Assembly: GCF_022394535.1 (NCBI RefSeq)
Contig: NZ_CP089414.1
Span: forward strand, 3,100,001 to 3,164,000
Reading direction: 5' to 3'
DNA length: 64,000 bases
Source of the DNA: Dyella terrae
GTDB lineage: Bacteria; Pseudomonadota; Gammaproteobacteria; Xanthomonadales; Rhodanobacteraceae
Positions 22,805 to 49,891 of this stretch are shown one piece after another. Below the pieces are notes generated by a model. The model had not been told where the DNA came from and ran no database searches. It was given only the letters and a program-made list of their open reading frames with translations. The translations under genes were made by a program, and so were the position numbers. How positions within the stretch are numbered: position 1 is the stretch's first letter; the number at the start of each line of letters is the position of its first letter.

Positions 22805-23260
22805 GCTCCCTCGCCCCTTTGGGGAGAGGATTGGGGTGAAGGGTGGATGCTCGCTTCATCGTTTCGTCTTTCTCTTCTGCCCTGGCTTTGTGTATTCGCT
22901 CTCTGCTCTCAGGGCAGGAGCAACGCGACCTACCGCGATGCGATGTGCAGCAAAGCTGCACGAGCCGTGCGCTTTCGCCTTTGACCTTCGGGCCCCTCAC
23001 GGACTGGCCGGCTTCACCGGCCAGCGCCAAGTCGGGGTGCCCTTCTCTTTGGTTGCTTTCTCTTGGGCAAGCAAGAGAAAGCAACCCGGACTGCGGCAGC
23101 AGTTCGGAAGCCCGCGGCAGGCGAGCCAGGTCGCCGTAGTGCGACGACCAAGCACAAAGTCACTGGACCCCGGCCTCCGCCGGGGTGACGGCTAAAGATG
23201 AAACGGTGAGGCTAGATTGGCCCCTCACCCCAACCCTCTCCCCGAAGGGGAGAGGGAGCT
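22805..23260 (+). repeat. Mosaic hairpin repeat, copy A
   Basis: Shares modules with the stretches at 30646-31630 and 49245-49833. Ends carry inverted copies of a GGGGAGAGG-type module (22805-22846 and 23221-23259). Internal stems: GTGCAGC-AAA-GCTGCAC (22945-22961), the CTGGCCGG hairpin, a perfect 15-bp stem (23051-23065 with 23072-23086) and ACCCCGGC/GCCGGGGT (23167-23186). It lacks the multi-branched module of the other copies. It fills the space between two convergent genes. Open frames through it show no protein family. Confidence 0.8.
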
Positions 23261-30547: not shown

Positions 30548-30645
30548 TTGGCGAGTGTTCCGGGATGGCTCGATTGGGCGCGCTTGCGTGGGTGGTGTTT
30601 GTTTGTCCTCGTTAGCACGTTCGCTCGCTGGGCGCCCCAGTTCTG

Positions 30646-31630
30646 CCCCCTCTCCCTTTGGGGTGAGGGGTGGGTGCTCGCCTTATGGTTTCGATGGAAC
30701 CGTCATCCCGGCGCAGGCCGGGATCCAGTTGCGTCAGTGGTCGGCTGTCGCCTCGTGCGTTACCGCGATCGGGCCGCTTACGCAGCGGGCGTTTCGATCG
30801 TCTGCCGACGACGCGAAGCTAGTCCCGTGGGACACTCGAGTCACTTTTCTTTGCTTGCCCACGCACGCGCAGGAGCGCGTGCGAACGGCGAAGCCGGCCC
30901 GAAGGGCGAAGGGCAGGATGCCCGGAGTAAAGAAAAGTAACCCGAAGAAATGGCCTGACAGGCCAACGCCCGTAGCATGTCGATGGGATAAGCCCGAACG
31001 GGTGAGGAACGTTGTGGCTTGGCCACCTTCGCCGCTACACAGCGGGTACGTCGGAGCGCTTAGCAACGCGCCATGGCGGAGAGGACTTAAAGCAGGCTTC
31101 GCTACGCTTCCCGACCGGTGTGGAGAACTCGCCACGTAACGGCATCGTCCGTCTGCCCTGGCTTTGCGCGCTAAAGCGGGAGCAACGCGACCTGCCGCGG
31201 CGCGATGTGCAGCTCCGCTGCACGAGCCGTCTGCTTGTCGCTTCTGATCGTCGGGCCCCCTGTGCGGCGGTGAGGGGTGGACGAGAAGGCCCGCAGGGGG
31301 GATCGGCACGGATGCCGATCCCTTTTCGCCAGGGCAGGAGCCCTGTCGAAAAGCCCGGCCGCCCCTCACGAACTGGCCGGCTTCGCCGGCCAGCGCCAAG
31401 TGGGGGTGCCCTTTCTTCGGTTACTTTTCTTTGGGCAAGCAAAGAAAAGTGACTCGGCCTCCGGCAGGAGGGCGAAACGCCCGCCGCCTAGGCGGCCAGA
31501 TCGACGCCACGCGACAATCAAACACCGGGGCTCTGGACCCCTGCCTGCGCAGGGGTGACGGCTAAAGATGAAACGGTGAGGCTAGATTGACCCCTCACCC
31601 CAACCCTCTCCCCCAAGGGGAGAGGGAGAA
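30646..31630. repeat. Mosaic hairpin repeat, copy B (two head-to-head units)
   Basis: The left part (30646 to about 30960) is in minus sense and the right part (about 31055-31630) in plus sense. The left has a GGGTGAGGGG module (30646-30671), the ATCCCGGC hairpin (30705-30724) and the TCACTTTTCTTT/AAAGAAAAGTAACC stem (30841-30942) enclosing a loop with further hairpins such as CGCACGCGC-AGGA-GCGCGTGCG. The right repeats the order of copy C: GTGCAGC stem, multi-branch module, CTGGCCGG hairpin, GGTTACTTTTCTTTG stem (31419-31453), ACCCCTGC/GCAGGGGT (31537-31556) and the final module (31591-31629). It occupies the whole 1.1 kb between mutM and the convergent gene. Confidence 0.8.
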
Positions 31631-31647
31631 ACATCACTGGAGCAACA

Positions 31648-49215: not shown

Positions 49216-49244
49216 CACGGCGCTTGGCTCTCTTTTGCAGGGTG

Positions 49245-49833
49245 CGCGTACTTCGTAGCGCTTCGCAACGCGCCGTGGCGGAGAGGACTTAAAGCAGGCT
49301 TCGCTACGCTTTCCGACCTCGAATGGAGAACTCGCCACGGAACGGCATCGTCTTTCTCTTCTGCCTTGGCTTTCAGCACTAGAGCAGGAGCAACGCGACC
49401 TGCCTCGATGCGATGTGCAGCTCCGCTGCACGAGCCTTCGGCTCGGCGCTTTTGATCGTCGGGCCCCCTGTGCGGCGGTGAGGGGTGGACGAAAAGGCCC
49501 GCAGGGGGGATCGGCAGGACGCCGATCCCTTTTCGCCAGGGCAGGAGGCCCTGTCGAAAAGCCCGGCCACCCCTCACGAACTGGCCGGCTTCACCGGCCA
49601 GCGCCAAGTGGGGGTGCCCTTTCTTCGGTTACTTTTCTTTGGGCAAGCAAAGAAAAGTGACTCGGCCTCCGGTAGGAGGTCGAAAGCCCGCCGCAGGCGA
49701 GCCAAGTAGCGACCACGCGCCAACCAAGCGCAAAGTCACTGGATCCCGGCCTGCGCCGGGATGACGGTTCTATCGAAACCATAAGGCGAGCACCCGCCCC
49801 TCACCCCAACCCTCTCCCCGAAGGGGAGAGGGA
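49245..49833 (+). repeat. Mosaic hairpin repeat, copy C
   Basis: Starts soon after the amidohydrolase stop. Stems, in order: GTGCAGC-TCC-GCTGCAC (49415-49431); a long closing stem GTGAGGGGTGG/CCACCCCTCAC (49478-49488 with 49567-49577) enclosing GGATCGGC/GCCGATCC (49508-49528) and CAGGGC/GCCCTG (49537-49553); CTGGCCGG/CCGGCCAG (49581-49601); GGTTACTTTTCTTTG with CAAAGAAAAGTGAC (49627-49661); ATCCCGGC/GCCGGGAT (49743-49762); CCCTCTCCCC/GGGGAGAGGG (49810-49832). This is the fullest plus-sense copy. It lies between two genes on the same strand, with ubiE starting 59 bases later. Confidence 0.8.
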
Positions 49834-49891
49834 GACAAAACCGCTGCCCCCAAAGAAGAAGCCCACCCCCTCGATCCGCTACCATTAGCCA

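Follow-up and report, generated by a model that had tools for sequence, protein, structure and literature searches.

The repeated hairpin found in this stretch of 64,000 nucleotides (the window) probably belongs to a dispersed, structured plus-strand RNA with a triple-helix pseudoknot module, which occurs in records carrying six phylum labels and, in this genus, within BoxC-bounded elements. In the structure that we propose, the hairpin stem would be stem 2 of an H-type pseudoknot, stem 1 would form between an upstream TGCCC and GGGCA in the hairpin loop, and the pyrimidine linker following TGCCC would sit in the major groove of stem 2, parallel to the purine arm, making U.A-U and C.G-C triples. 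The pseudoknot would constitute the 3' part of the element, and the 5' part, in several taxa and also in window copies B and C, would be a pair of GGA-loop hairpins held in a basal stem, similar to the predicted CsrA-binding RNA TwoAYGGAY. Covariation and permutation tests support both helices and the parallel third strand, and the sequence comparisons strongly support the view that the three would form one fold; it is likely that the folding molecule is RNA rather than single-stranded DNA. We infer an RNA molecule whose GGA loops would bind CsrA/RsmA and, by analogy with triple-helix RNAs, whose triple helix may stabilise or cap the transcript.

Three copies of the hairpin lie on the plus strand of the window: copy A with arms at 23051..23065 and 23072..23086, copy B at 31419..31453 and copy C at 49627..49661 (sequence and inverted-repeat listing for each). 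These are the arms and positions given in an earlier note on this DNA, and the four two-sided changes that it described between A and B/C are real; they fall on pairs 5, 10, 11 and 12, with pairing kept. The note also described one wobble, in the plus sense only: pair 4 of B and C is indeed T.G in that sense, but a stem counted to 15 bp gains a second wobble, the outermost G.T. Copies B and C represent a single sequence type, thus the window offers one contrast, not two. A degenerate hairpin pattern had three sites in the window and none in 100 shuffles; in the whole genome of 5.36 Mb (G000, the genome containing the window; other G numbers denote genomes and L numbers loci) it had 73 sites, 36 forward and 37 reverse, against none for the reversed-pattern control. 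A chance origin of the hairpin copies is excluded. Two features lay outside the earlier description: the segment upstream of the hairpin changes along with both arms of stem 2, and the loop can form a second helix.

The third strand of copy A, TTCTCTTT (23043..23050, plus strand), matches the purine arm AAGAGAAA in parallel. Upstream of the purine arm AAAGAAAA of copies B and C stands TTTCTTC (31412..31418 and 49620..49626, both plus strand), where the match extends to six letters only (in copy B six of seven letters match AAAGAAA; copy C was assigned by sequence and permutation test). Further copies were sought in 299 genomes of the phylum and chosen by the hairpin alone, the upstream letters being unused. 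The hairpin search matched 153 of the 299 genomes, many of them by chance, since the reversed control also matches; fully paired arms were chosen by eye among the matches listed, 22 genomes were listed more fully, and 40 regions were fetched. Two of the 40 (L251 and L252) were set aside as unrelated GC palindromes. Most of the remaining ones have an upstream run that corresponds to the arm in parallel orientation, as in L236 (arm AGAAGAAA, run TCTTCTTT), L243 (AAGAAAAG, TTCTTTTG), L255 (AAGAAAGA, TTCTTTG), L262 (AAAGAAGA, TTTCTTG) and L233 (AAAAGAAA, TTTTCTTT); three fetched regions (L234, L257 and L259) have other sequence at the third-strand site.

The statistics rest on 117 copies left after redundancy was removed; they fall into 36 groups, and G000 or Dyella contributed 39 copies. 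The stem filter had removed 34 of 121 exact-core matches among the matches listed, namely 22 Methylophilus copies with an imperfect 5' arm and 12 others. A parallel hexamer was present at most 26 bases upstream in 106 of the 117 copies and absent in 11, compared with a mean of 71.1 and a maximum of 84 in 5000 permutations of the arms; an antiparallel hexamer was present in 74 (permuted mean 67.8, 170 of 5000 permutations as high). Eight-letter matches were parallel in 56 copies (permuted maximum 35) and antiparallel in 23, a level reached in 1027 of 5000 permutations. With seven letters, no permutation came up to the observed count in either orientation (parallel 78 against a maximum of 57, antiparallel 73 against 66), an outcome that we ascribe to the common arms AAAGAAA and AAGAGAA being mirror-symmetric. 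Summed over the arms AAAAGAAA, AAGAAAAG, AAAAGAAG and AAAGAAGA, the match was parallel in 19 of 20 copies and antiparallel in none, and for the arm AAGAAAGA the figures were 12 and 7 of 14; among the other 83 copies, 75 had a parallel and 67 an antiparallel match, most holding both. The permutations ignore the relatedness of the copies, therefore arm switches within a genome matter: in each of G019, G207, G000 and G064, two or more arm types are found together with third strands to match. The linker thus matches the purine strand of stem 2 in the parallel sense, as in H-type triple-helix pseudoknots, and antiparallel matches are enriched at seven letters only. A parallel match is a mirror match, which is not expected from the copying of a palindrome and is required for a pyrimidine-motif third strand. 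Triple counts in two alignments were 257 of 259 in the parallel versus 249 of 259 in the antiparallel register (A1) and 102 of 102 versus 68 of 102 (A2), figures that illustrate rather than test the register because the rows were preselected for six third-strand bases; the high antiparallel count in A1 again reflects the mirror-symmetric arms.

In its general layout, stem 1 joins the first five loop bases to the five bases that precede the third strand. In copy A, TGCCC (23038..23042) pairs with GGGCA in the hairpin loop (23065..23069), whose first G competes with the hairpin-closing pair; in copies B and C the same TGCCC stands at 31407..31411 and 49615..49619, with partners at 31433-31437 and 49641-49645 (all plus strand). 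Thirty distinct strand/loop combinations, drawn from the 106 copies having a third strand, were paired at 120 of 150 positions (permuted mean 101.7, maximum of 20000 permutations 115). The third pair was seen as C-G, G-C, T-A and A-T, and the variants include TGCCC/GGGCA, TCGCC/GGCGA, GGCCC/GGGCC, CGGCC/GGCCG, CGACC/GGTCG, TGGCC/GGCCA, TTCCC/GGGAA and TGTCC/GGACA. In alignment A1 (38 of 78 rows) the pseudoknot was paired in 95.8% of cells, compared with 86.9% when shuffled and at most 63.6% when slid; the corresponding values for A2 (17 of 78 rows) were 98.3%, 88.4% and at most 65.5%, stem 1 being free of preselection in both except for the GG fixed by the search patterns. One of five measures, the occurrence of further pair types, gave no excess over shuffles (88 of 500 for A1, 322 of 500 for A2). 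Two crossing helices, the arrangement of an H-type pseudoknot, are supported by covariation.

The strand that folds can be judged from the wobbles. In 60 unique group/stem combinations, pairs 7-11 of stem 2 comprised 255 Watson-Crick pairs, 21 G.T, 1 A.C and 23 others, with G.T in 15 and A.C in 1 of the 36 groups. It must be added that the stem filter took G.T as paired, a possible bias towards it at pairs 7-10; the unaffected pairs 11-13 had 31 G.T and 3 A.C in 69 combinations, in 20 and 3 of the 36 groups. The excess of G.T over A.C points to the plus strand as the folded strand. Pairs 3-5 of stem 1, with zero wobbles and six A.C-type mismatches, count against plus-strand folding; we dropped the wobble argument from stem 1 because the search pattern fixed the first two G's of the loop. 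What had been read as selection on folded plus-strand RNA, with palindromic DNA as a possibility, is thus supported as to the folded plus strand beyond the stem, by the covariation of third strand and pseudoknot, by the G.T/A.C bias and by the GGA hairpins on the same strand (see below), whereas simple palindromic DNA is countered by the same third-strand and pseudoknot covariation.

Gene orientation, estimated from crude gene calls, gave no constant sense strand: the classes same/same, opposite/opposite, same/opposite and opposite/same contained 22, 22, 18 and 11 of the named loci, and 9, 17, 21 and 6 copies in G000. This makes it less likely that the element serves particular messages as leader or tail, and favours either an RNA standing on its own or a structure that the repeat itself uses. 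A coding origin was also considered and rejected, the three overlapping ORFs having no Pfam family above cut-off and one-base loop indels arguing against it; by the crude calls, 54 of 110 named copies and 34 of 53 G000 copies overlap an ORF of at least 110 aa.

Of 96 copies, 50 have hairpins with ANGGA-type loops on their own strand no more than 260 bases upstream, and one has them on the opposite strand; in random stretches the count was 101 of 5000. The same-strand hairpins mostly lie 50-125 bases upstream of the pseudoknot and occur in 11 of 32 groups (21 are without them), 28 of the 50 carrying copies being from G000 and Dyella. In copies B and C two GGA-loop hairpins are enclosed by a basal stem, as in TwoAYGGAY. 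The basal stem of copy B spans 31270..31369 (31270-31280 with 31359-31369) and encloses GGGATCGGC-ACGGAT-GCCGATCCC (31299..31322) and CAGGGC-AGGA-GCCCTG (31330..31345; both by sequence and class test), and a further hairpin, CTGGCCGGC-TTC-GCCGGCCAG, follows at 31373..31393. That of copy C spans 49478..49577 (49478-49491 with 49564-49577, from the inverted-repeat listing) and encloses hairpins with the loops AGGAC (49507..49529) and AGGAG (49537..49553). GGA hairpins were not found in copy A, which has the GC-rich hairpin CTGGCCGG...CCGGCCAG just upstream (23004..23024; all these features are on the plus strand). The fold shape of the basal stem and GGA hairpins of copy B was also computed for two other G000 copies. 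G000 has a CsrA gene, and ANGGA-type loop hairpins on the folding strand together with a CsrA gene in the genome are what a CsrA/RsmA-sequestering RNA would call for.

TwoAYGGAY (RF01731), proposed as a CsrA-binding RNA in the passages devoted to it in PMC4333381 and listed in the corresponding part of PMC2864571, matched Pseudoalteromonas locus L275 directly upstream of the pseudoknot with 51.3 bits (Rfam cut-off 43); the scores of L274 (41.5 bits) and of L248 and L249 (36.9) were below the cut-off. At gathering cut-offs Rfam had no match in the window, TwoAYGGAY included, and TwoAYGGAY was absent among the matches in eight loci (E<=1) and in seven of eight loci of another set (E<=5). Another candidate, sRNA-Xcc1, was not among the matches in eight loci at E<=1. 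An alternative 5' module, a UGUCUGAG...CGAGUU hairpin, precedes the pseudoknot on the same strand in 12 of 96 copies; the opposite strand had it in one copy of the 96 and the background in 6 of 5000. This hairpin looks k-turn-like and was seen in L021, L033, L038, L105 and L233 and in the fetched loci of G207, G170, G219 and G126.

The window copies are flanked by BoxC/TMECO-like purine-motif triplex sequences, so that a single element has triplex motifs of two kinds nested within it. Copy A has such a motif on its left at 22805..22843 (plus strand; inverted pair, motif as defined in the relevant part of PMC4666352) and on its right at 23221..23259 (minus strand; inverted-repeat listing and motif expression). 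Copy B has a BoxC-like left end (30648..30674, plus strand) and a right motif (31590..31626, minus strand; inverted-repeat listing for both, motif expression also for the right one), and for copy C the motif expression located the right motif (49801..49832, minus strand). Near the left end of copy B the inverted-repeat listing shows a partial hairpin (30837..30861, minus strand) of which only the purine side is kept, the 5' arm being replaced; left-end copies with the 5' arm replaced by GCGCTCCTGCGCGTGCGT-type sequence include, besides this one, L161, L165, L166, L198, L200 and L202. A loose expression picks out 70 hairpins in G000; in 42 of these an inverted BoxC/TMECO-like motif stands 136-284 bases to the 3' side and in 5 to the 5' side, and random stretches had it in 254 of 4000.

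In this genus the pseudoknot module often comes as outward-facing pairs inside mosaic elements with BoxC boundaries, and orthologous sites may either carry such an element or lack it. The 20 fetched copies of G312 (L276-L295) form a single aligned element: two pseudoknots face outward at a distance of 375-387 bp in 18 copies and 581 in two, and the ends are BoxC-like and carry GCTCC...GGAGC (of the 20 copies, 13 have a left end and 9 a right end that the motif expression detects). Loose-pattern counts, with those of the reversed control in brackets, were 2 (2) in G299, 7 (0) in G310, 67 (35) in G000 and 129 (7) in G302; high control counts in some genomes make these numbers rough. From species to species of the genus, the intergenic sites of copies B and C (30548-31647 and 49216-49891 in the window) are occupied by elements that vary in size or kind, or are empty; in 5 of 20 loci of this comparison the left gene was not reached. 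At the site of copy C the intergenic gap is 676 bases in G000 and 82, 52 and 64 bases in G300, G310 and G316; G307 and G312 have short BoxC pairs only. The occupied and empty sites may reflect insertion or deletion.

Some of these properties would also suit a different molecule. The same pseudoknot triplex could form in single-stranded DNA, on the lagging strand or in a transfer intermediate, and serve the spreading of the repeat, the RNA being incidental. The many copies per genome (from 7 in G310 to 129 in G302), the outward-facing pairs at near-constant spacing in G312, the orthologous sites both occupied and empty and the lack of a constant orientation to genes are all in keeping with this. 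We nevertheless consider it rather unlikely, since the GGA-loop hairpins, which are of a protein-binding type, occur on the same strand only and are joined by the TwoAYGGAY match, in the outward pairs the structure changes strand from one end to the other, an arrangement from which IS200/IS605-type ends differ, and clear target duplication was not seen by eye in the 20 G312 copies. Mobilisation of the units as REP/REPIN sequences by a Y1 (RAYT) transposase is extremely unlikely. The element resembles REP/REPIN in consisting of short, dispersed palindromic extragenic units, often in inverted pairs, and PF01797 (Y1 transposase) had a match in 11 of 20 genomes of the genus, including the copy-rich G302, G304 and G317; unlike REP/REPIN, however, it shows three-strand covariation and does without a Y1 transposase in G000 and several copy-rich relatives, PF01797 not being found in G000, G312, G307, G300, G309 or G311 and being present in the copy-poor G299 (count 2).

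Two further explanations would dispense with a folded single strand as the selected structure. The third strand and the 5' arm together make a mirror repeat, so that the conserved thing could be H-DNA in the duplex; this is very unlikely, because H-DNA could form without stem 1 and without an inverted repeat made by the purine arm, yet stem 1 covaries, and because of the strand asymmetry between G.T and A.C in stem 2. Template-switch correction of an imperfect palindrome at replication is known to yield two-sided changes in hairpins and could maintain the stem with its structure unselected, but it would not yield the parallel match of a third segment, the covariation of stem 1 or the G.T versus A.C asymmetry, and its probability appears to be minimal.

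The exact 22-base core occurs in at least 120 stretches of other genomes. Among the matches listed, isolates of Dyella, Lysobacter, Methylophilus and Methylocaldum are represented, as are metagenome-assembled genomes (MAGs) named Selenomonadaceae, Chitinophaga, Latescibacterota, Thermodesulfobacteriota and Rhodoferax; the plasmid collection, searched by distant BLAST, added Ilyobacter polytropus (Fusobacteriota), two Pseudoalteromonas records and one Aeromonas record. With the phyla that we assume for the MAG names, this makes six phylum labels, four of which come from MAGs only, where misbinning is possible. Viral contigs gave two exact matches and phage records none. The core sequences were not found in the open-licence literature searched.

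It is instructive to compare the plus-strand RNA that we favour with known systems. Like TwoAYGGAY it would have two GGA-loop hairpins in a basal stem, and the above-cut-off match in L275 adjoins the pseudoknot; the descriptions of TwoAYGGAY in the pertinent passages of PMC4333381 and PMC2864571, however, mention neither a pseudoknot nor a triple helix, the window is below the cut-off, and some other taxa have a different 5' module. With the PIT, BoxC and TMECO intrastrand triplex repeats, as far as the relevant part of PMC4666352 presents them, it shares the dispersed intergenic location in bacteria and the single-strand triplex potential. Its order, Hoogsteen strand, pyrimidine strand, purine strand, with stems of 6-15, is that of class IV in the same part of PMC4666352, although the inter-arm loop of stem 2, mostly 8 bases, exceeds the 1-6 bases to which the search made there was limited. 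TMECO, by contrast, is a G/C-rich purine motif (class II) without a pseudoknot, and the part of PMC4666352 in question treats the G/C-rich BoxC and does not describe the A/T-rich pyrimidine-motif pseudoknot. In this genus the purine-motif BoxC and the pyrimidine-motif triplex co-occur. The order of crossing helices, and a linker able to lie alongside the purine strand, in parallel, within the stem-2 major groove, are shared with the SAM-V and guanidine-III riboswitches, as the excerpts describing these outline them. Telomerase RNA also has an H-type pseudoknot with a major-groove triple helix. Unlike such triple-helix pseudoknot RNAs, the element is a multicopy dispersed repeat without constant gene orientation or known ligand. 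Searches of the open-licence literature for triplex repeats, for triple-helix pseudoknots and for BoxC together with CsrA brought up no description of it that we recognised.

Covariation of base triples across taxa, in a multicopy element not matched as such by Rfam, is unusual, and the copies amount to a series of naturally occurring triple-helix mutants. Should the element be RNA, it would connect triplex-forming bacterial repeats with predicted CsrA-binding RNAs and with triple-helix pseudoknots, three subjects kept apart in the literature surveyed, and the role of abundant intergenic repeats would become testable. A wider interpretation, to which we would give somewhat less than an even chance, is that of a new RNA superfamily with a common 3' triple-helix pseudoknot and a swapped 5' module (GGA hairpins or the UGUCUGAG...CGAGUU hairpin), a cross-phylum multicopy repeat of mobile or mosaic nature, in which the triple helix might be the cap or recognition site for one widespread factor.

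A few copies deviate from the general layout. The 5' arm is broken by a short insert in L011, L016, L061, L084, L111, L122 and L124, which belong to Dyella and Lysobacter-like genomes. In L063 and L107 the upstream side ends in a different common sequence, TTGCACTTGATATTAGAGAC, perhaps the end of an insertion sequence within the motif. Most of the 22 exact-core matches in Methylophilus (L015, L024, L031, L043 and others) have an imperfect 5' arm, with TTATT or TTGTT before CTTTGGGC, and these imperfect-arm copies fail the stem filter; some Methylophilus exact-core copies are in tandem (L064). In genome G064 (family f32), L269 and L270 face each other at a distance of 93 bases, the reverse of the arrangement in G000.
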